A stretch of DNA of 23,246 nt from a virus. A program made the translations under genes and the position numbers. The notes beneath the pieces were generated by a model. It worked only from the letters and a program-made list of their open reading frames with translations, was not told the origin of the DNA and searched no databases. This document shows positions 3,100 through 23,174 of this stretch, piece by piece. The DNA lies in IMG/VR virus record IMGVR_UViG_3300042564_004206, positions 1-23,246 of that record; one strand, given 5' to 3'. Positions within the stretch are counted from its first letter, which is position 1. Every line of letters starts with the position of its first letter.

Positions 3100-4593
3100 T
3101 CACACAACCAGCACCAACTCCGACTTCGGCCGGGTCAGCGCGACGTACAGCATTCGGTTGTACGTCTGCTCGGCCAGGACGCGGGCCGCATGCAGCTCCT
3201 GCTGGGTCTTGAATGCACCGCGGGTGGTGCTAGACAGGCCGATGTCGTGCAGATCGACCACGGTGACCCCATGCGTCGATCCCTGGGCCTTGTGGGCTGT
3301 GGTGGCCCAGACGCCACGCAGATCGACGATCTGGCGCAGCTCCTCCTGGCAGGCCTTGACTGCCTGCAGGTGGCGAACCTGCTCGCTGGTACGGTGCCCA
3401 GGCGCCACGCCCTCCAGCTCTTTGCGCAGCTTCCAGCACTCGCTCTTCAGGTCGAGCCACTCGGCCGGATCTCGGGCCACCTTCATCATCCGCTGGCTCC
3501 CGTCGTTCAGCAGCTGGCCGTCGCTGATCAGGATGTACTGCAGATCGGAGTGCTCGCATGTCTTCACCGAGCTGACATACACAGCGCTGATTCGATCACC
3601 CACGTTGTACACAACGCGCTCATCTTTTCCGATGCCCTCAACGAGCGGCTCAGAAAACACCATTTCCTCGCCCACAAACGGGATCTCTGAGCCGGTCAAC
3701 TCCCGGCGCACATCTCGGATGATCTCCAGAACGGTCTTGTTTCGGTACGCAACTGCGTAAGGCGTCAGTTCTGCATTCTCCTGAGCGCTCACGCCAGCTT
3801 CACCAGCCTTCGACCACACATGAGCTTGATACCGCAGCGCAGCCAGCAGGACGCGCGTCGAGACACGCATGCTCTTGCCTCCAGGCATCCATGCTTCATC
3901 CGTGCCTTCACGCACGACGTTCACTCCACAGAGATCGCCCTGGTCGTATCGCTCCAGCAGCTCCCTTGGGAGCGTCACTTCTGAGCGCTCGATGTTGTCG
4001 CGCACAACCTGCGCAAGCGCTGGCGCATCGCATTTGCCGCGTCCACGCATGACCTCCGTCAGACGCAAGATCTGGTGAGGCTCTGTAGTGAGCGCTGGCG
4101 ACACGCTACCGTCGCCCGACACCGGCGGCAGCTGCGCGTCATCGCCGACGAACAGGACCAGCCGCACCGCCTGCTTACGCGCATCGGCCAGGATCAGGTC
4201 GACCAGCTCCGGGTCGAGCATTGACGACTCGTCGACGATCAGCACCTGCAGGCCCTCAAACACCTCCAGCTCGCCGCCCCTGGCCGGGCGCCGCTTGAAG
4301 GACAGCTCGCCGCTGGCCGTGCGCTTCGGGGTCAGCCGCAGGGCCGAGTGACAGGTGGTGGCGCCCTCAATGCCGGCCTCCTTTAGCACGTTCACGGCCG
4401 CGTTGGTCGGCGCGATGGTCAGCGGGTAGATGCCCAGGCCCTCCAGCTGCGCGCGGACCTCGCCGATGCAGTAGCTCTTGCCGGTGCCGGCGTACCCAAT
4501 CAGCGCCAGGACGGTCGTGCCGCCGGGCACGGTGGCCGCCTCGACGATAGCCTTAATGGCCGCCTGCTGGGCTGGGACGATGATCTTTTCCAT
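3100..4593 (-). CDS. SF1B DNA helicase, Dda/RecD-like
   Basis: The protein (497 aa) is an ATP-driven DNA helicase of superfamily 1B, as used by phages in replication and recombination. Walker A is GYAGTGKS (33-40), Walker B is IVDESSMLD (119-127), and motif III is GDDAQLPPV (150-158). The C-terminal UvrD-like half has TTAHKAQGST and the closing NRMLYVALTRPKSELVLVV with the motif VI arginine. ATG at 4593 sits inside an operator half-site (ATATCACAATG); AAGGA lies 9 nt upstream and overlaps the end of the primase gene, which stops 12 nt away, so the two genes are one transcription unit. The gene ends beside the candidate origin. The family call is firm; loading by the upstream primase/helicase is inference. 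Confidence 0.93.
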   Translation of the reverse strand: MEKIIVPAQQAAIKAIVEAATVPGGTTVLALIGYAGTGKSYCIGEVRAQLEGLGIYPLTIAPTNAAVNVLKEAGIEGATTCHSALRLTPKRTASGELSFKRRPARGGELEVFEGLQVLIVDESSMLDPELVDLILADARKQAVRLVLFVGDDAQLPPVSGDGSVSPALTTEPHQILRLTEVMRGRGKCDAPALAQVVRDNIERSEVTLPRELLERYDQGDLCGVNVVREGTDEAWMPGGKSMRVSTRVLLAALRYQAHVWSKAGEAGVSAQENAELTPYAVAYRNKTVLEIIRDVRRELTGSEIPFVGEEMVFSEPLVEGIGKDERVVYNVGDRISAVYVSSVKTCEHSDLQYILISDGQLLNDGSQRMMKVARDPAEWLDLKSECWKLRKELEGVAPGHRTSEQVRHLQAVKACQEELRQIVDLRGVWATTAHKAQGSTHGVTVVDLHDIGLSSTTRGAFKTQQELHAARVLAEQTYNRMLYVALTRPKSELVLVV

Positions 4594-4600
4594 TGTGATA
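4585..4600 (-). promoter_or_regulatory. Operator half-site over the helicase start codon
   Basis: The minus strand reads TATCACAATGGAAAAG. The left half and AATG centre are perfect and the right half is lost to coding sequence. The ATG of the motif is the start codon of the helicase gene. Confidence 0.5.
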
Positions 4601-4605
4601 TTCCT

Positions 4606-7521
4606 TTAGTTGCTGCGCACACGGGTGGCAGTGATGATCGACTCGGTGATCTGCTCATACGAGTGGTCAGGGTGTCCGTCGATGTGGGCCACCAGGGTCT
4701 CCGGGTCCATCGTCGAGCTGTAGTGCTCGGCGTGCACGAAGGCTCGACTGCGAACGCTGGGACCGCGCACATCGATCTCGATGATCTCGCCCGAGTCGAT
4801 CAGCGACGACAGCGCATTGTTCAGGTCCAGCGGCTTGGCGGCGCGTGCTTGCCTGATGGACGAGATGATCATCGACTTCGGGAACCCGATGGCGCCACCG
4901 AAGGTTTGTGTCTTTCGCTTGACTCCATACGGCCGGCGCAGGAACTCCTTGATCTTGTTCATCAGCGCCTCGTGATCGGAGCCGCTCAGATTGGACGTCA
5001 GCACATCTTCCATCCGCAACATGCAGTGCTTGGCCAGACCGAACGCCCAGGTGATCGACGACGGGCCGATCTCCAGGCCGCGCTCGCTGTCGCGCGCTGC
5101 GATGTATTCCTCTGCCGTGTGGCTTGTGCACGCGTGCACCAGGGCCAGACGCTGCAGCAGGGCGCCGAAGCGGGTCCACAGATCAACCATCCCCTTGCGC
5201 TTGGCCACCTCGACTGCACCGTCGAGCCAGGGCTGCACGATGGACTCAGCGATGTGCATCGCTGGCGCCGTAAGCCTGACGGTGGGAGCGTGCTCCGGCG
5301 TGCGGCCAACCAGATTCCCAGTGCCCGGCACGATCGGCGCCGAGGAGTGCACGGCCGCCATCCAGTGCGTCAGTCCCACTGGCACACCAGCGCCAGCGTC
5401 GGAGTAGCGCAGGCCCAGCGAAGCCCGCGACTGGGCCGGGCTCTCGAGAAGCATCAGGCGATTCAAGAAGCCCGACGCCATGTCGGCCCCGTTGAGCGCC
5501 TCGTACAGCGTGTCGGCCGTGGTCGTTGCATACACGTTCAGGCACGGGTAGACGATCGCCCTGGCGGCCTTGGCCTTGGTGTCGCTGTACATCGTGCCGA
5601 CGTAGGTCTGCTCGGCCGCTCCAGTCAGCGCCAGCAGCTCTTTGATGATGCCGTGCTTCGGGCTGTTCTCACGCTTGGCCGACTGCAGCAGCAGGCCGAA
5701 CTCGTCGAGCTGCAGGAGCGTGCTCGGGTGCTCTGCAATGCGAGACACAATGGCCGGGCCCGATGCTGGGTCGCCGCCCTCCAGGTGCGCCAGATTGGCC
5801 GACGCCAGGGCCCGCCTGATGCATTTGCGGCCGTGCTCTTTGCCGGTGCCGGTTGCTGCGGTGGCCACGATGTAGAGATTGGTCCGCAGGCCCGTGCCAG
5901 TGCGGACCATGCGACCCAGCACGGTCGCAGCCAGGGCCAAGCTCGCCGCCAGGGCCAGCTCGCTCTGTGGCTCGGTCGGCTGGGTGGCCATCATCCAGTC
6001 GTATGCCGTGCGCAGCTGCAGCGGCATGTCGTCCAACACCTTCTGCGGGATCTTGACCGCACGCCCCAGCGGCTGGGCCTGCTCGGCTGCTCGGTTGGTG
6101 TTGCGCTCGATGGCGTCGACCGCGGCCGGCGGCAGCACGCTGGGCGCCACAGCCTGGGTGAACCACGTCGGCCGAGCTTCGGGAGGCAACTCGTGCTCGG
6201 GCAGCGGCGTCGGATCTGGCAGCGTCACACCCAGGGCCGCAGCCTGCCGCTTGGCCGTGCCAGCAATCAGCCGAGCGATGGCCGGGTCGGGCTCATGCAC
6301 GAGGTTGTAGGTCGTGTTGGTGCCGGAGTCATAGACAAACGGCTCGCCCCGCTGGGTCAGGCCAACGAAGGCGGCCCAGCTGCTGGACTCGCGGAACGGG
6401 GCTTGGCAGCGGACCTTCAGCCCAGGCTGCAGCGTGGCCGCCACCTGGGCCAGCGTCATCATGCCGTCGCGCGTCTCGATCGGCGTCGTCGGGCGCAGGC
6501 CGTCCTCGCGGAACTGCGCCACCCCGCCCTCCCCGTCGCGCTCCATCAACACCGGCCGGCCGGCTGCCGTGGTCACGGTGACCAGATCGTCCTCGTCTGG
6601 CAGCTCCAGATCCGCGCAGACGTCGTCGGTCGTGCCGCGGTGGATCTCGACAGTCTGCGGATGCACGATCAGCCCCGACCCGTGGTCGACCGTCGGCGCG
6701 CCGCAGAAGACCAGCCGCTCCAGGGCCAGGACGCTGTCGTCCAGCAGGCAGCGCCAGTCCTGGGCCACCGCCCTGGTCGGGTCGTCCTTCGCATACTTGT
6801 TGACCAGCCACGCCTTGCCGGTGGCCAGCGCCCTGGCGCGCACGGCCGCCTTCAGCTGGTCCCGGTCGACCGGGTGGTCGAGCCTGACGAATGTGTGCCC
6901 TGCCTTGCTGCCCGGCTTGCCGCCATATTCGGTGACCCGTGCAGAGCTGGACAGGGTCGACACCCTGGTGGCCGCGCTGATGCCTGGGATGACGTCGTCC
7001 AGCGCCCGCAGGAAGGCCTCGTGCGACAGGCTGGCGAAGGTGGCCGGCGTCTGCGCGTCGATGTCCCGGTCGATCAGCGCCCACCGCGATGGCCGCGCGT
7101 TGTGCTTCGTGCGGCAGACCGCGATGTTCGTCTGACCCAGCGGGTCGGTCAGAACGTGGATGCCGTCCAGCTCCTCGTCACTGATCGCGGCCGGGTCGGT
7201 CACACCCTGGATGGTCATCAGCGCGCCACGCATCAGGCCGCGCGAGACCAGCCTGAACTCGACGCCCACCGGCACGCCGAAGTGCCCCAGGATCAGTGCT
7301 GTGGTGTTGCGCTCGCTCGCGTACTGGATGACCTGGGCCAGCTCCTCGTGTGTGCGGCAGCGCACGGTGTAGGCCTCCCCGTCGACCAGCATCACGTTGC
7401 TGCTCTTCGTGCCGTCGGCGTGGATGCGCTTGCCCAGCGGCACATCGTCGGTGACGATCGTGATGCAGTAGTCGTCGGGCAGATCAGCCCCTGCTGGGGC
7501 TTGGTATTCGATGTCTTTCAT
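4606..7521 (-). CDS. Primase/replicative helicase, AEP-like N-part with DUF3987-type ATPase
   Basis: This 971-aa protein is the main replication protein. An N-terminal part has archaeo-eukaryotic-primase-like motifs: LIDRDID (149-155, metal-binding D-x-D) and SKAGHTFVRLD (205-215, an s-x-H-type motif). A middle linker (370-500) is rich in Pro/Ala. The C-terminal half is a RecA-fold helicase with Walker A AATGTGKEH (555-563; K561), Walker B LLQLDEFGLLL (D606, E607) and a final ~100-residue region that looks like a winged helix. Such phage primase-helicases make primers and unwind DNA at the origin. The start ATG at 7521 has AAGGGA 4 nt upstream. A promoter and operator precede it, directly against a terminator for the upstream genes. 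The helicase call is strong. The primase call rests on two motifs and spacing; the third acidic residue is not assigned. Confidence 0.88.
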   Translation of the reverse strand: MKDIEYQAPAGADLPDDYCITIVTDDVPLGKRIHADGTKSSNVMLVDGEAYTVRCRTHEELAQVIQYASERNTTALILGHFGVPVGVEFRLVSRGLMRGALMTIQGVTDPAAISDEELDGIHVLTDPLGQTNIAVCRTKHNARPSRWALIDRDIDAQTPATFASLSHEAFLRALDDVIPGISAATRVSTLSSSARVTEYGGKPGSKAGHTFVRLDHPVDRDQLKAAVRARALATGKAWLVNKYAKDDPTRAVAQDWRCLLDDSVLALERLVFCGAPTVDHGSGLIVHPQTVEIHRGTTDDVCADLELPDEDDLVTVTTAAGRPVLMERDGEGGVAQFREDGLRPTTPIETRDGMMTLAQVAATLQPGLKVRCQAPFRESSSWAAFVGLTQRGEPFVYDSGTNTTYNLVHEPDPAIARLIAGTAKRQAAALGVTLPDPTPLPEHELPPEARPTWFTQAVAPSVLPPAAVDAIERNTNRAAEQAQPLGRAVKIPQKVLDDMPLQLRTAYDWMMATQPTEPQSELALAASLALAATVLGRMVRTGTGLRTNLYIVATAATGTGKEHGRKCIRRALASANLAHLEGGDPASGPAIVSRIAEHPSTLLQLDEFGLLLQSAKRENSPKHGIIKELLALTGAAEQTYVGTMYSDTKAKAARAIVYPCLNVYATTTADTLYEALNGADMASGFLNRLMLLESPAQSRASLGLRYSDAGAGVPVGLTHWMAAVHSSAPIVPGTGNLVGRTPEHAPTVRLTAPAMHIAESIVQPWLDGAVEVAKRKGMVDLWTRFGALLQRLALVHACTSHTAEEYIAARDSERGLEIGPSSITWAFGLAKHCMLRMEDVLTSNLSGSDHEALMNKIKEFLRRPYGVKRKTQTFGGAIGFPKSMIISSIRQARAAKPLDLNNALSSLIDSGEIIEIDVRGPSVRSRAFVHAEHYSSTMDPETLVAHIDGHPDHSYEQITESIITATRVRSN

Positions 7522-9173: not shown

Positions 9174-9371
9174 TCACTTCTGTGATGCCGGCTTGATCTT
9201 CTTGTCGACCTTCAGCTTGCCCTCAGACAGCTTCTCGATGCGGAGCTGCTGGAGTTCAGGGATCGAGCCTCGGCGGCGCCAGTTGCTCACTGCGGGCTGG
9301 CTGACATTGAGCAGGGAGGCGAGTCCGACCGTGTTGGTCTTGAAATGAGAGAGTGCCTTGTCGAGTGTCAT
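9174..9371 (-). CDS. Cro-like helix-turn-helix regulator (65 aa)
   Basis: ATG at 9371 has AAGGA 7 nt upstream. The protein is a small single-domain DNA-binding protein: TVGLASLLNVSQPAVSNWRR (14-33) is a typical helix-turn-helix, with the second helix SQPAVSNWRRRG as recognition helix, followed by IPELQQLRIEKLSEGKL and a Lys-rich tail. Size and layout match lambda-type Cro/YdaS-like proteins. It is the first gene of the leftward replication operon and diverges from the XRE repressor at 9437, the classical cI/cro arrangement. It probably competes with the repressor for the same operators to favour lytic growth. The HTH call is firm; which operator it prefers is unknown. Confidence 0.85.
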   Translation of the reverse strand: MTLDKALSHFKTNTVGLASLLNVSQPAVSNWRRRGSIPELQQLRIEKLSEGKLKVDKKIKPASQK

Positions 9372-9407
9372 GGAGTTGTCCTTGTTAGGTGCCAATGCGG
9401 CGCCAGC

Positions 9408-9426
9408 ATCATACATCATTGTTATA
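9408..9426 (-). promoter_or_regulatory. Operator and -10 of the leftward (cro-like) promoter
   Basis: Minus strand TATAACAATGATGTAT (9411-9426) is a variant operator overlapping a TATGAT -10 (9408-9413). The same operator/-10 geometry is seen in the rightward cassettes at 11246 and 11513. The -35 is poor. This is the divergent switch region (9372-9436). The rightward repressor gene's ribosome site GGAGG (9428-9432) begins just past it, so one bound protein could affect both genes. Confidence 0.6.
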
Positions 9427-9436
9427 CGGAGGTTAT

Positions 9437-9811
9437 ATGGTGAACCGTAAAAACGACTGGACCCCTGAGTCCGAGGAGATGTTCCAGGCCATGACCGTCG
9501 GCGAGCGTGTGCGCTGGCTGCTGGAAGTGCGCGGGCTCAAGCAGGTGGAGGCGGCAGCTCGCATGAATGCAACCCAGCCGATGCTGTCCAACATACTGAC
9601 GGACGCGTCGCGCAAGCCCAGCGCGCCCACCCTTCTGAAGATGGCCGAGGTGCTGGAGTGCAGCCCGAGCTGGATCTTGGACGGCCGCGGCAACCCGTTC
9701 GCCTGGGCAGTGGTCAGCGACGCGCGGGCCGCAGAGCTGCTGCAGATCTTCCGCCGACTGGCGCCTGCCCAGCAGGACGGCATGCTGGCGATGGCCAGGA
9801 CGCTGGGCTGA
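9437..9811 (+). CDS. XRE-family phage repressor without peptidase domain
   Basis: ATG at 9437 has GGAGG 4 nt upstream. The 124-aa protein has an XRE helix-turn-helix at about residues 23-82: GERVRWLLEVRGLKQVEAAA, ATQPMLSNILTD as recognition helix, then LLKMAEVLECSPSWILDGRG, the usual CI-type end of the domain. The C-terminal ~40 residues (VSDARAAELLQIFRRLAPAQ) are helical, perhaps for dimer formation. There is no S24 LexA-like peptidase, so RecA-triggered self-cleavage is not expected. It diverges from the Cro-like gene and heads the rightward operon. It is the best candidate for the protein that binds the ~22 TATCACAA-type sites, since no other CI-type protein is visible. Confidence 0.85.
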   Translation: MVNRKNDWTPESEEMFQAMTVGERVRWLLEVRGLKQVEAAARMNATQPMLSNILTDASRKPSAPTLLKMAEVLECSPSWILDGRGNPFAWAVVSDARAAELLQIFRRLAPAQQDGMLAMARTLG

Positions 9812-9825
9812 TCTCCACAAAGTTG

Positions 9826-9856
9826 TTGACGCCTGATATCACAAGCGTGATATAGT
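9826..9856 (+). promoter_or_regulatory. Promoter-operator cassette P1
   Basis: TTGACG (9826-9831) is followed by the operator TATCACAAGCGTGATA (9837-9852) and TATAGT (9851-9856), preceded by TG for an extended -10. The spacer is 19 bp to TATAGT or 17 bp to GATATA. It drives the NinX-like gene. From the operator through AGTCAAGCCAT it is identical to P2. Confidence 0.8.
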
Positions 9857-9897
9857 CAAGCCATTGCAACAGCGCTGCGGCGCAACGGGAGATGGCC

Positions 9898-10359
9898 ATG
9901 ATGATCAACACGAGCGACCTGATCAGGCGTCAACTTGACTGGGCGGTGGCAAAGGCGCTGGGCCACGAGACGAAGATCCGCAGCTGGAAGGACATCACCG
10001 ACACCATCGACCCAGTTGAGGATGCCGACATGATCGAGTTCCACAGGGCCAACAACACTGTCAGCGTTTCGTCTGCGCAGATCCCCGGCGGCGGCTGGTT
10101 CCCGACTCCGAAGTATTCGACCGACTGGGCGCATGGCGGGCCGATCATCGATCGGGAGATCCACAACCTGTTCAAGTGGAATCAGCTGGACCCGAGCGCG
10201 CCGGAGATGTGGTGCGGGGTGCACAACGTCAAGGACGACAGCGGAATTCTTGCCATCAACCGAGACGGTCCGACCCCACTGATAGCAGCCATGCGCTGCT
10301 TCGTCGCCAGCAAGCTGGGCGATGTGATCGATATGCCAGACGAGCTGGCCCAGGCATAA
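9898..10359 (+). CDS. DUF2591 (NinX-like) phage protein
   Basis: Three ATGs lie close together; 9898 is chosen because GGGAG sits 6 nt upstream (9901 is also possible, and 9892 abuts the site). The 153-aa protein has the family signature: LIRRQLDWAVAKALG at the N-terminus, YSTDWAHGGPIIDREI in the middle, and GPTPLIAAMRCFVASKLGD near the C-terminus. DUF2591 proteins occur in the nin regions of lambdoid phages and in many betaproteobacterial prophages; their function is not established. It is the first gene expressed from P1, directly after the repressor, where early host-interaction genes are found. Confidence 0.85.
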   Translation: MMINTSDLIRRQLDWAVAKALGHETKIRSWKDITDTIDPVEDADMIEFHRANNTVSVSSAQIPGGGWFPTPKYSTDWAHGGPIIDREIHNLFKWNQLDPSAPEMWCGVHNVKDDSGILAINRDGPTPLIAAMRCFVASKLGDVIDMPDELAQA

Positions 10360-10369
10360 GGAGACAGCC

Positions 10370-10687
10370 ATGAAGATCGCCGAGATCCGCCGCATCATCA
10401 ACTCAGCCAACTGGTCCCGCCTGGATCTGCATGGCGCCACCCGTGACGAGTTCATCAAGATGGACGTCGGCCAGCGCCTGTATCGCCATGTCGTGGCCCT
10501 GCGCGCCCTGGAGATCGCACCAAGGTTCGCCGACGACATCCGCGCCCGAGACAGCGCGGCCGAGGCCTGCCTCGCCATGATCGGCCGCTGGGAGGGGCTG
10601 CGAGCCATCAGCCCCGTGACGGTGGCTAACCATGAGGCGCGCACGCACGGGCCGCGGCTTGTGGTTGACAACACGAAATCTTGTTGA
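10370..10687 (+). CDS. Hypothetical protein, 105 aa
   Basis: ATG at 10370 follows AAGGAGACAGCC, a strong ribosome site, and lies 10 nt after the NinX-like gene, so both are read from P1. The protein is basic and helical (RRIINSANWSRLDLHGATRD, DVGQRLYRHVVALRALEIAP). No motif is recognised. Its TGA stop (10685-10687) lies inside the TTGACA -35 of cassette P2, so gene end and next promoter share bases. Confidence 0.75.
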   Translation: MKIAEIRRIINSANWSRLDLHGATRDEFIKMDVGQRLYRHVVALRALEIAPRFADDIRARDSAAEACLAMIGRWEGLRAISPVTVANHEARTHGPRLVVDNTKSC

Positions 10688-10714
10688 CAGCGAATATCAC
10701 AAGCGTGATATAGT
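10684..10714 (+). promoter_or_regulatory. Promoter-operator cassette P2
   Basis: TTGACA (10684-10689), operator TATCACAAGCGTGATA (10695-10710) and TATAGT (10709-10714) have the same spacing as P1. The perfect -35 makes it probably the strongest of the set. It drives the two genes at 10744-11236. Confidence 0.82.
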
Positions 10715-10743
10715 CAAGCCATCGCAACGCAACGGAGATCAGC

Positions 10744-11016
10744 ATGATCAAGACCATCACGAAGAACGCGCACCAACTTCGCAAGGGTGACATCGTCCTG
10801 TTTTATGGCGGCCGCTTTGAGGTGGTCACTGATCTGCGCGAGTCCAGCGGGCACCGCCCAGAAGGCTACTGGCCCGAGGCTGGTGTCGGCCCGTCGGATT
10901 GTGTGGTCTGCGAGGCAACCTGTTTGAGCGGCGAGGTGCGCGGTTACTTCCGCCCGGGCAGCTCTTGGACATTCCAGGGCAACCACCGCGCCACGTTCGC
11001 TGTTGTCGCGCAGTAA
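10744..11016 (+). CDS. Hypothetical beta-rich small protein, 90 aa
   Basis: ATG at 10744 follows ACGGAGATCAGC. The sequence reads HQLRKGDIVLFYGGRFEVV and later FRPGSSWTFQGNHRATFAVV, so it is probably a small beta barrel. It has two Cys in DCVVCEATC but no clear zinc motif. It is the first gene after cassette P2 and is followed 10 nt on by another small gene with a near-identical ribosome site (AAGGAGACCACC). No known family is recognised with confidence. Position suggests an early host-takeover or anti-defence gene; that is inference. Confidence 0.78.
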   Translation: MIKTITKNAHQLRKGDIVLFYGGRFEVVTDLRESSGHRPEGYWPEAGVGPSDCVVCEATCLSGEVRGYFRPGSSWTFQGNHRATFAVVAQ

Positions 11017-11026
11017 GGAGACCACC

Positions 11027-11236
11027 ATGATAATCAACCTCAAAGCTAAGTCCGTCTACGGTCAGATCAAGTTCTACCCTGCCGGGCCGTTCGCCCAGGC
11101 CGTGGCCGACACCGCTGGCACGAAGACCATCGAGCCGCGCATCCTCAAGATCTGGGCCGGCCAGGGCGCCAGCATCCTGATCGTCGATGGCGGCAGCACC
11201 GAGGCCCACGAGCTCCTGGCTGCGCACGGCATCTGA
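11027..11236 (+). CDS. Hypothetical protein, 69 aa
   Basis: ATG at 11027 is chosen for the AAGGAGACCACC directly upstream. The product begins MIINLKAKSVYGQIKFYPAG, a beta-strand start common in small phage proteins, followed by QAVADTAGTKTIEPRILKIW and a short helical end. The N-terminal YGxxKFYP pattern is one I associate with small phage proteins, without a known function. It is co-transcribed with the preceding gene from P2 and is followed by cassette P3 nine nucleotides after its stop. Confidence 0.75.
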   Translation: MIINLKAKSVYGQIKFYPAGPFAQAVADTAGTKTIEPRILKIWAGQGASILIVDGGSTEAHELLAAHGI

Positions 11237-11245
11237 AGAAAGTTG

Positions 11246-11276
11246 TTGACGATATGCATCACGCTTGTGATATGAT
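11246..11276 (+). promoter_or_regulatory. Promoter-operator cassette P3
   Basis: TTGACG (11246-11251), operator CATCACGCTTGTGATA (11257-11272) and TATGAT (11271-11276) use the same spacing as P1 and P2. Here the operator centre reads GCTT, so the asymmetric core is inverted relative to the promoter, unlike the others. The leader (GATGCAAGCTCTG) resembles that of P4. Confidence 0.8.
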
Positions 11277-11307
11277 GCAAGCTCTGCAATGCAAACAGGG
11301 GATCGAA

Positions 11308-11511
11308 ATGAACACCACAGTCTTCGCACTCACAGTCGCCACCAGTGACCACAATGGCCGCCTCGTCGCAAGCGTGATCGCGCACTTTGAGTTCAGCAAC
11401 GATGGCCGCAAGGCTGCAGAGCTGGCGATGAATGCGATCCCTGATGCCGGCCTCGTTGGCCCGGTCGGCAGCGCCAAGTACCCGCTTGGACACCAATACT
11501 TCGCCGAGTGA
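11308..11511 (+). CDS. Hypothetical protein, 67 aa
   Basis: ATG at 11308 has AGGGGATC upstream. The sequence (NTTVFALTVATSDHNGRLVA, then VIAHFEFSNDGRKAAELAMN) suggests two beta strands and a helix, ending near VGSAKYPLGHQYFAE. It is the only gene between cassettes P3 and P4, so each promoter here serves one gene or a pair. Its stop lies 2 nt before the TTGACA of P4. No family is recognised. Confidence 0.72.
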   Translation: MNTTVFALTVATSDHNGRLVASVIAHFEFSNDGRKAAELAMNAIPDAGLVGPVGSAKYPLGHQYFAE

Positions 11512-11512
11512 G

Positions 11513-11543
11513 TTGACACTGAGTATCACAATGGTGATATGAT
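11513..11543 (+). promoter_or_regulatory. Promoter-operator cassette P4
   Basis: TTGACA (11513-11518), operator TATCACAATGGTGATA (11524-11539) and TATGAT (11538-11543) form the fourth cassette with identical spacing. This operator is a full match to the consensus and differs from the intragenic site at 17334 only in the last two bases. Confidence 0.82.
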
Positions 11544-11574
11544 GCAATCTCTGAAACGAAATCAGGAGAGCAAG

Positions 11575-11769
11575 ATGAACGACAGCCAAAAAGAAGCCAT
11601 CGCCACAGCTGACGCGCACACCAGCAACGTCGGCCTGCCGACGTACAGTGAGCTGGTGGAGGCGCTGCGCAAGCTGCACAGCGAGGGTCAGATGTACATG
11701 GCTCGCCATCGCTTGGATCGCAGCGCGATGGCCGACGCTGCCGCCCTGCTCGCCCGCACCCCCAACTGA
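11575..11769 (+). CDS. Small helical protein with GLPTYSELVEAL motif (64 aa)
   Basis: ATG at 11575 follows CAGGAGAGCAAG. The sequence has NVGLPTYSELVEALRKLHSE, then MYMARHRLDRSAMADAAALL. It shares a pattern with the next gene product: LPTYS, an AL-x2-L helix, a YM pair and an A-x-ALL end. The two look like old tandem paralogues. No family or function is recognised. It is read from P4 together with 11784-12014. Confidence 0.72.
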   Translation: MNDSQKEAIATADAHTSNVGLPTYSELVEALRKLHSEGQMYMARHRLDRSAMADAAALLARTPN

Positions 11770-11783
11770 ACAAGGAGACCACC

Positions 11784-12014
11784 ATGCCAATGCACCCCGG
11801 AGAAGCCGTAAAACTCAGCCCGGCCACAGCCGCCAACATCAAGCTGCTGGATCAGGCCGCGCGCCTGGGTTCGCTGCCCACTTACTCGCAGCCGCTCGCC
11901 GCGCTGAACAATCTGGAGCTGGCCTGCAGTGGCGTCAGCTACATGGAGCGCGAGTACGCGGAGGAACTGAGCGGCGCGCGCGCTCTGCTTGAGAAGTTCG
12001 ATCAGGTGAGCTGA
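11784..12014 (+). CDS. Small helical protein, probable paralogue of the preceding gene (76 aa)
   Basis: ATG at 11784 follows AAGGAGACCACC, almost the same ribosome site as at 11027. The product contains RLGSLPTYSQPLAALNNLEL, then SYMEREYAEELSGARALLEK, aligned in order with LPTYS, AL-x2-L, YM and ALL of the upstream protein. The N-terminal ~25 residues are extra. Tandem diverged copies behind a repeated promoter cassette suggest the region grew by duplication. Confidence 0.75.
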   Translation: MPMHPGEAVKLSPATAANIKLLDQAARLGSLPTYSQPLAALNNLELACSGVSYMEREYAEELSGARALLEKFDQVS

Positions 12015-12212: not shown

Positions 12213-13091
12213 GTGACTATCAAGCAAGTGCACGGCCGCGAGATCTACACCCCGCAGCAGCTTCAGAAGATCCTGGCCTATGACCCGGAGACTGGCGCCA
12301 TCACGGTGCGCAAGACGGGCGCCAGCGCACGCGGCAAGACGGGCCGCAGCAGCAGCCGGGTCTCGGTCAATGGGACCGTCACGGCAGCCAGCACCATCGT
12401 CCACGCGCTGATGGTGGGCGAGTGGCCGGCGATGTCGCAGACCCGCTACGTCGATGGCGACGCCAACAATCTGGCCTGGGCCAACATCATCTATGTGGGC
12501 GGCGGCAAGACGGCCGAGGCGGCGGGCAATCGGCACGAGGTGTCTGCGCGGCGCCAGCTGCTGGAGATGTTCCGCGCAAACCCGACCGGGGTCTACGGCA
12601 TCCGCGACATCGCCAAGGCGCTGCCTGGGCTGCCCAAGGCAACAGTCAGCACCTGCCTGACCGCGCTGCGCCGATCGTGCGACATCCACATCGCGGCCCT
12701 GGACAGCGAGTTCTATGCGGCCAGCGGCCGCGCCGCTGCGCGCTTCACCTACGGCCCGGCGCCAGAGGGTTACGAGTCGGCCAACATTCGCCTGGACCTT
12801 GCTGCGGTGCAGGCTGCAGTGCAGGCGCTGATGAAGAAGCCGAGCTACTCAGCAAAGAAGAAGGCACTGGCACTGGCCCGCCTGGAGGCAGCCCCCAAGG
12901 TCACCCTGGCAGGCGCCGACGCGAGCACGACCGAGGACGAGGATGAGGAGTGGTTCAAGATCGCCAGCAGCAAGAGCCTGAAGCAAGCCAACGGCACGAT
13001 TGCCAACGTCATGCGCGACCGTGTGCCGGTGTCGATCTTCTCGATGGCCGCGATGGGTCGCCTTCCCTCTATCTCTGTATCACAATGCTGA
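12213..13091 (+). CDS. Degenerate HNH-derived DNA-binding protein with winged-helix region
   Basis: GTG at 12213 is chosen for the AAGGAG about 8-10 nt upstream; an ATG at 12150 would add 21 residues. The N-terminal ~95 residues follow phage HNH endonucleases: ILAYDPETGAITVRK, a VNG strand, VGEWP (68-72) and VDGDANNLAWANI (80-92). The catalytic parts are lost: the usual AHRLAW is AASTIVHAL, and the DH of the usual IDHINGD is replaced (TRYVDGD). Residues ~110-160 (RRQLLEMFRANPTGVYGIRD, LPKATVSTCLTALRR) look like a winged helix, followed by a Lys-rich linker and an acidic DEDEEW stretch near 250. I infer a domesticated DNA-binding regulator, not a nuclease. Its last codons overlap an operator and the next gene's start. 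Confidence 0.75.
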   Translation: MTIKQVHGREIYTPQQLQKILAYDPETGAITVRKTGASARGKTGRSSSRVSVNGTVTAASTIVHALMVGEWPAMSQTRYVDGDANNLAWANIIYVGGGKTAEAAGNRHEVSARRQLLEMFRANPTGVYGIRDIAKALPGLPKATVSTCLTALRRSCDIHIAALDSEFYAASGRAAARFTYGPAPEGYESANIRLDLAAVQAAVQALMKKPSYSAKKKALALARLEAAPKVTLAGADASTTEDEDEEWFKIASSKSLKQANGTIANVMRDRVPVSIFSMAAMGRLPSISVSQC

Positions 13092-13385: not shown

Positions 13386-13469
13386 ATGAAGCTGAACATT
13401 GACGACATCGTCGGCGTGGCCGCAGTCCTGATCGGGCTGGTGGCATGGCAGGGAGGCCTGCTGTGGTGA
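13386..13469 (+). CDS. 27-aa single-span membrane peptide
   Basis: ATG at 13386 follows AAAGAGGAACGC, a good ribosome site. The peptide MKLNIDDIVGVAAVLIGLVA continues to WQGGLLW. It has a short acidic head and one hydrophobic segment of about 17 residues, so it is probably a single membrane helix. It is the first gene after P5, and its stop overlaps the next start as GTGA. The coupling and strong ribosome site support a real mini-gene. Confidence 0.62.
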   Translation: MKLNIDDIVGVAAVLIGLVAWQGGLLW

Positions 13470-22944: not shown

Positions 22945-23174
22945 TTGGACTTCGTCTCGACGTCCTTCTGCGCCACGACGCGCGCGATGGCAGCGGCCAT
23001 CGCCACAGCCGCGGCTGCCTTTGCGAAGGTGCCGCTGGGCACATCGGGCGCCAGCATGGGCATGGCCGCCTCCAGGCCAGACAGCAGGCCAGACAGCAGG
23101 ATGAGCCGCATGCTCCAGGCCTTGTTCAAGATGGCGCGCCACTCAGGCGTCAGCTTCAGCATTGTGATATTCAC
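22941..23174 (-). CDS. Holin-like protein (77 aa)
   Basis: GTG at 23174 has AAGGA 6 nt upstream and overlaps the stop of the gene to the right (GTGA). A second start, ATG at 23162, lies inside an operator-like site; dual starts are known in holins. Two membrane segments fit: LILLSGLLSGLEAAMPMLA and FAKAAAAVAMAAAIARVVA, with basic ends (KAWSMR; QKDVETKSK). The W(S)(M/I)RLILLSGLLSG pattern is common in small holins of Burkholderiales phages (DUF7940-like). It directly precedes the endolysin. Confidence 0.82.
   Translation of the reverse strand: MNITMLKLTPEWRAILNKAWSMRLILLSGLLSGLEAAMPMLAPDVPSGTFAKAAAAVAMAAAIARVVAQKDVETKSK
23154..23169 (-). promoter_or_regulatory. Operator-like site over the holin start
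   Basis: Minus strand TATCACAATGCTGAAG covers codons 2-7 of the GTG-started holin, or its second start ATG. In frame it encodes ITML, as at 13333 and 13486. It extends the operator set into the late lysis genes. Confidence 0.55.

Follow-up and report, generated by a model that had tools for sequence, protein, structure and literature searches.

A phage relative of HNH homing endonucleases that has lost its catalytic Asp-His pair and may serve as a two-domain DNA-binding protein

I-HmuI, from a Bacillus phage, is an HNH homing endonuclease with a DNA-binding tail as its C-terminal part, and HNH chemistry as it is known needs an active-site Asp and His and is unavailable without them. A survey of Skunavirus phages names the catalytic residues of I-HmuI as D74, H75 and N96 (PMC12724721). 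That endonucleases can give rise to DNA-binding regulators is already known: one report discusses plant AP2, CapR and the dual role of I-TevI as endonuclease parts turned DNA binder or regulator, CapR of the PLE satellites being a repressor whose origin lies in the portion of T5orf172 homing endonucleases that binds DNA (PMC10448857). Fusions of a winged helix with an HNH domain appear in a further source as 6mA-dependent type IV restriction systems and active enzymes (PMC11037411). A phage regulator composed of a dead HNH domain and a winged helix is described in none of the titles and abstract openings of the literature searched.

Here we analyze P0001, a gene carried by a 23,246-base virus record (this whole stretch of DNA is the window hereafter; Table 1), and lean toward the reading that its product is a two-domain DNA-binding protein that does not cut. 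The original prediction had recognized in its N-terminal part the scaffold of a phage HNH nuclease, and this is borne out by the motifs YDPETG (at residue 23), VNG (52), GEWP (69) and GDANNLAWAN (82), by a PHROGs profile search in which phrog_99 (HNH endonuclease) matches residues 12-91 with E=3.5e-4, and by a fold match to I-HmuI. The Pfam HNH_3 profile stays below its cut-off (E=0.2), and tblastn with P0001 returned 10 phage records, the best at E=3e-4 and none spanning 80% of the query, of which six carry annotations as HNH or homing endonucleases or nucleases and four are labeled hypothetical proteins. A search from a three-row alignment yielded 79 further relatives in IMG/VR (62 once near-copies are removed), which together with five phage proteins make up a set of 84 aligned relatives, near-copies included.

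Table 1. Positions in the window of P0001, its parts and the surrounding features.
Feature	Position	Strand	Basis or remark
P0001 gene, HNH-derived winged-helix protein	12213..13091	+	ORF calling; GTG start; 292 aa
RBS AAGGAG of P0001	12199-12204		8 nt upstream of GTG
Degenerate I-HmuI-like HNH domain, residues 13-96	12249..12500	+	phrog_99 match; VIA-align to 1u3e
S60, replacing His of HRLAW	12390..12392	+	column is H in 72/84 relatives
R78-Y79, replacing catalytic Asp-His (D74-H75 of I-HmuI)	12444..12449	+	alignment of 84 relatives
Predicted winged-helix domain, residues 99-180	12507..12752	+	HTH_IclR sub-threshold; single-sequence model; fold matches
Acidic patch EDEDEE, residues 241-246	12933..12950	+	sequence
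Lambda-like operators TATCAC-N4-GTGATA	9837-9852, 10695-10710, 11257-11272, 11524-11539		in promoter-like repeats
Nearest upstream operator-bearing promoter-like repeat	11510..11557	+	repeat family D1; TATCACAATGGTGATA at 11524-11539
Nearest recognizable repressors, separate HTH genes	9174-9419; 9428-9811	−; +
Small gene, ATG at 13085 just before P0001 stop codon	13085-13348		phrog_17124, E=5.6e-4, weak
ATCACAATGCTGA site over P0001 stop codon and next-gene ATG (13085)	13079..13091	+
Asymmetric 13-mer ATCACAATGCTGA sites	1876, 7574, 8304, 8328, 8885, 13079, 13334, 13487, 16070, 17335, 23156

The active site is a different matter. Where the relatives carry HRLAW, P0001 reads STIVH, and R78-Y79 stands in place of the D-H pair, so that both His replacements that had been proposed are present. 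The R78 column holds Asp in 81 of the 84 relatives, missing in only three, the Y79 column His in 82, missing in only two, and the N91 column Asn in 83, a residue that P0001 retains. Counted along the alignment, R78-Y79 corresponds to D74-H75 of I-HmuI and N91 to N87; a PDB profile match to 1u3e (E=1.9e-5) served for this numbering only, since the profile itself contains 42 HNH relatives. The counterpart of I-HmuI N96 is T100 in a gap-free alignment and N106 when a six-residue insertion is allowed. Compared with 42 relatives, P0001 keeps YDPETG (Y23-G28), G36, G54, M67, G69, W71, P72, W89 and N91, while at positions 60 (H), 61 (R), 78 (D), 79 (H), 87 (N) and 93 (R) the residue conserved in the relatives is replaced. 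Because the Asp, the His and the His of HRLAW are each present in most of the 84 relatives yet replaced here, cutting by the known mechanism appears very unlikely, and the absence of the catalytic Asp-His residues lends support to the proposed loss of catalysis. P0001 could still be a nuclease if different residues did the cutting or if it had a second active site, given that N91 is kept, that H64 lies one helical turn past the lost His, and that one relative, L095, pairs a degenerate HNH_3 domain with an intact nuclease domain in a single protein. The D-H pair is however wholly gone, H7, H64, H108 and H159 are all the His residues that P0001 has, searches with Pfam, PHROGs and NCBIfam turned up no intact HNH elsewhere in the protein, and neither a second HNH nor an Endonuclease VII domain was detected; we give this reading very little credence.

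Loss of the Asp-His pair is rare among the 84 relatives, where it is not intact in four (L095, YP; L100, YH; L101, DR; L150, EH), two of which carry the degenerate HNH beside another functional domain. In L095 (2782-3576), a dead HNH_3 domain (AMALAW, VYP) is followed by an Endonuclease VII domain that looks intact (E=2.9e-19), and L101 (1580-2533) has two tandem HNH_3 domains, with D-R standing for D-H in the first and an intact D-H in the second, an arrangement that suggests a duplication followed by loss of the active site in one copy. The L095 gene sits in a structural-looking gene region, and the same locus holds an HNH gene with intact D-H at 4378-5040. The situation of P0001 is therefore unusual but not unique: L095 and L101 likewise keep an HNH_3 scaffold without its catalytic residues beside a second domain, and differ in that another part of the protein holds an intact nuclease domain (Endonuclease VII or the second HNH_3), which P0001 lacks. 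Their architecture thus indicates that other phage proteins, too, have retained an HNH_3 scaffold after loss of its active site, with the second domain able to cut. In the tree P0001 joins L095 at 99/89; since no branches in the tree are longer than these two and the join was flagged as possibly false, we do not claim a shared loss of the active site.

Structure prediction, which had been suggested as a check, modeled the N-terminal domain confidently and with a fold that matches I-HmuI. The AlphaFold2 model was built with a 43-row alignment containing 42 HNH relatives, and the fold result depends on the sequence result, as the relatives supplied are HNH proteins. Over residues 11-90, ten-residue blocks have pLDDT values of 91-96, with one block at 77, and confidence is low at residues 172-194 and 229-292. 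Residues 13-96 align with I-HmuI (1u3e) over 78 residues with Z 7.5 and an rmsd of 2.6 in VIA-align, where a Z under 8 may reflect a common arrangement and the match agrees with the sequence evidence. A viral structure library returned 38 matches at E<=0.001, the named ones being mostly HNH or homing endonucleases and many being nameless. The I-HmuI-like HNH (HNH_3) fold of P0001 is recognizable both by sequence and in its predicted structure. P0001 has HNH ancestry, has lost the catalytic Asp-His and is encoded by an intact gene.

For the region that follows, a winged helix had been put forward, and here the topology is seen in a predicted model while sequence support is weak. The single-sequence model of residues 95-201, of low confidence (mean pLDDT 56.5), features three helices followed by a strand-wing-strand element (H5-28, H36-42, H48-61, E64-68, E82-86), and its nearest solved structures are winged helices, among them the Rpa2 winged helix, Z-alpha, the cullin WHB domain and Fur/MarR-type repressors, with VIA-align Z up to 8.3 and a Foldseek E of 0.04 at best. 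The IclR-type HTH profile (HTH_IclR, PF09339) matches residues 115-153 with E=0.0048 and 17.1 bits, under its curated Pfam cut-off of 22, and the winged-helix domain alone with E=7.2e-4 and 19.7 bits. On these grounds the predicted winged helix is supported, if weakly. The acidic tail of the original prediction reduces to an acidic stretch of six residues that is not the C-terminus, the next 46 residues being not notably acidic. Lys and Arg versus Asp and Glu number 10 versus 6 in the HNH part and 13 versus 10 in the middle part, a basic surplus that favors the binder reading, and residues 196-292 hold 13 K+R and 9 D+E in total.

The P0001 gene looks alive, with an intact frame, an RBS and neighbor-like codon usage. 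In frame the gene scores 0.53 bits per codon, the five other frames all being negative, and this value falls inside the range of 0.31-0.61 for 11 other window genes, whose own scores lean high because the codon model was trained on them. Taken separately, the two halves score 0.607 and 0.488 bits per codon, phage-typical in both cases, and there is therefore no compositional sign of decay. These observations bear on the main rival to the noncutting binder, namely that P0001 is a dying selfish gene, a dead homing-type endonuclease in the course of being lost, its frame open by chance and its product without function. Such a remnant would fit an orphan that is the most divergent row among the 42 relatives used for folding, retains 17 of 35 conserved positions (a figure that counts against the binder reading, as it fits drift as well as repurposing) and has an end branch of 2.36 versus a median of 0.88 in the tree; in the Skunavirus survey, moreover, 56 of 268 HNH genes are counted as incomplete (PMC12724721). 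It fits poorly with a full frame of 292 codons, a good RBS and codon usage like that of the neighbors in both halves, with a compact operon in which the P0001 stop overlaps the next start (13085-13091), and with the retention of scaffold residues while catalytic ones were lost. We regard it as unlikely, and as the alternative to be taken most seriously.

Close relatives of P0001 were found neither in IMG/VR nor in the GTDB species genomes, in scans that may omit the window's own record, and phage and plasmid records gave only distant HNH matches. Two DNA patterns designed for a Y-x-D-G variant had no match in IMG/VR, and a profile-type scan of GTDB genomes added one further HNH relative (L166), left out of the counts. 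For sister phages, 80 loci were kept from 349 stretches encoding a relative of the Cas4-like exonuclease; phmmer over ORFs of at least 40 aa in 86 loci detected no relative of the C-terminal half of P0001, for which phage and plasmid records likewise hold none, and, with the N-terminal half as query, retrieved nothing beyond the five known phage HNH records and a weak row, L030 (E=0.14). The neighbor gene at 13445 found nothing as bait for sister loci. Two regex rows for winged-helix ORFs across all loci were rejected, as they are not winged helices. A search of 11 genomes from the phylum to which a Flavobacteriales contig belongs did not find the P0001 gene, a result uninformative on bacterial spread. 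As no relative with both the HNH and the winged helix occurs in the collections searched, conservation of and selection on P0001 are not measurable.

P0001 lies within a rightward run of small early-type genes, and this placement is all that gene order shows with respect to the middle-gene role of the original prediction. Rightward small genes occupy 9389-12014, and the intervals upstream of them carry lambda-like operators, which precede the genes at 9892, 10744, 11308 and 11575. The first of these genes (9892-10359) encodes a relative of P22 NinX (PF10765, E=1.6e-17). The nearest upstream operator-bearing repeat would drive a gene run that includes P0001, its promoter reading having been made by eye and not returned by the promoter scan; no forward terminator was detected between the last operator-preceded gene (11575) and P0001, and the spacing suggests that P0001 belongs to the operon. 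The product of the overlapping small gene downstream is a possible partner of P0001, and beyond it come genes for phrog_2480, a Sak4-like protein, an SSB-like protein, a Cas4-like exonuclease and a helicase. This position upstream of a Sak4, SSB, Cas4-exonuclease and helicase block would also suit a winged-helix replication or recombination protein of the initiator or loader type, which would use the degenerate HNH as an extra DNA grip and be no transcription regulator. A match in the viral structure library, A0A2H4JB70, named putative replication protein (E=3.2e-4), points the same way, as does the archaeal Rpa2 domain bound to primase that ranks first among the winged-helix matches. Yet the phage already has genes elsewhere for a Dda-like helicase and a primase/DUF3987, winged-helix fold matches are silent on function, and A0A2H4JB70 is a database name only; we hold such a role to be distinctly improbable.

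Related to the lambda-like operators is an asymmetric 13-mer, ATCACAATGCTGA, with seven exact copies and 12 with up to two mismatches, where 0.58 are expected and the maximum in 50 random sequences was two. Read by eye, its strand agrees with the direction in which the genes around it run, 8328 being the one exception, and some sites lie over start codons (13085 and a gene near 23174), with weaker copies at the gene starts 4593 and 15351. The sites resemble the stoperators of phage L5 as these have been described (PMC9283540). P0001 might be a repressor or antirepressor of homing-endonuclease origin, its dead HNH and its winged helix jointly reading an asymmetric site, possibly ATCACAATGCTGA, in the manner of the two domains of an L5-type stoperator repressor; on the present analysis this specific version is a long shot. 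No second dispersed operator family attributable to P0001 was seen among the 20 largest of at least 60 repeat families, and the single dispersed family resembles lambda-type repressor operators and belongs more naturally to the HTH repressor genes.

With a kept scaffold and a predicted winged helix, a DNA-binding role is the simplest reading of P0001, and we infer both the binding and its regulatory use. In the noncutting model, P0001 would be a former HNH (homing-type) endonuclease of the I-HmuI type that lost its ability to cut, with the HNH fold retained as a scaffold for DNA binding and a winged helix following it on the C-terminal side, giving a two-domain, noncleaving DNA binder. Its gene would belong to an early-type operon of a temperate phage, and its binding to DNA may serve regulation, either of transcription or of the start of replication or recombination. 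Domestication as a regulator, as the original prediction had it, is plausible: catalytic loss and a second domain of DNA-binding type speak for it, the regulatory step itself is extrapolated, and the lack of a homologue with both domains counts against it.

Compared with I-HmuI, P0001 has in common the fold of the N-terminal domain and the N of the N-L-R turn, and differs in reading R78-Y79 for D74-H75 and in having a predicted winged helix where I-HmuI has its DNA-binding tail. With the 6mA-dependent fusion enzymes it shares a winged helix joined to an HNH domain; those are nucleases, whereas P0001 is without the catalytic pair (PMC11037411). The likeness to CapR is that of an endonuclease-derived DNA binder acting as regulator, and the difference is that CapR, from another nuclease class, keeps a zinc-finger DNA-binding domain, while P0001 keeps the nuclease domain itself, dead (PMC10448857). 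P0001 is so far one orphan gene; if the noncutting reading is true, it shows that an HNH scaffold can be reused, dead, as a DNA grip beside a winged helix, where the known cases, CapR and plant AP2, retain the part that binds DNA and discard the nuclease (PMC10448857).
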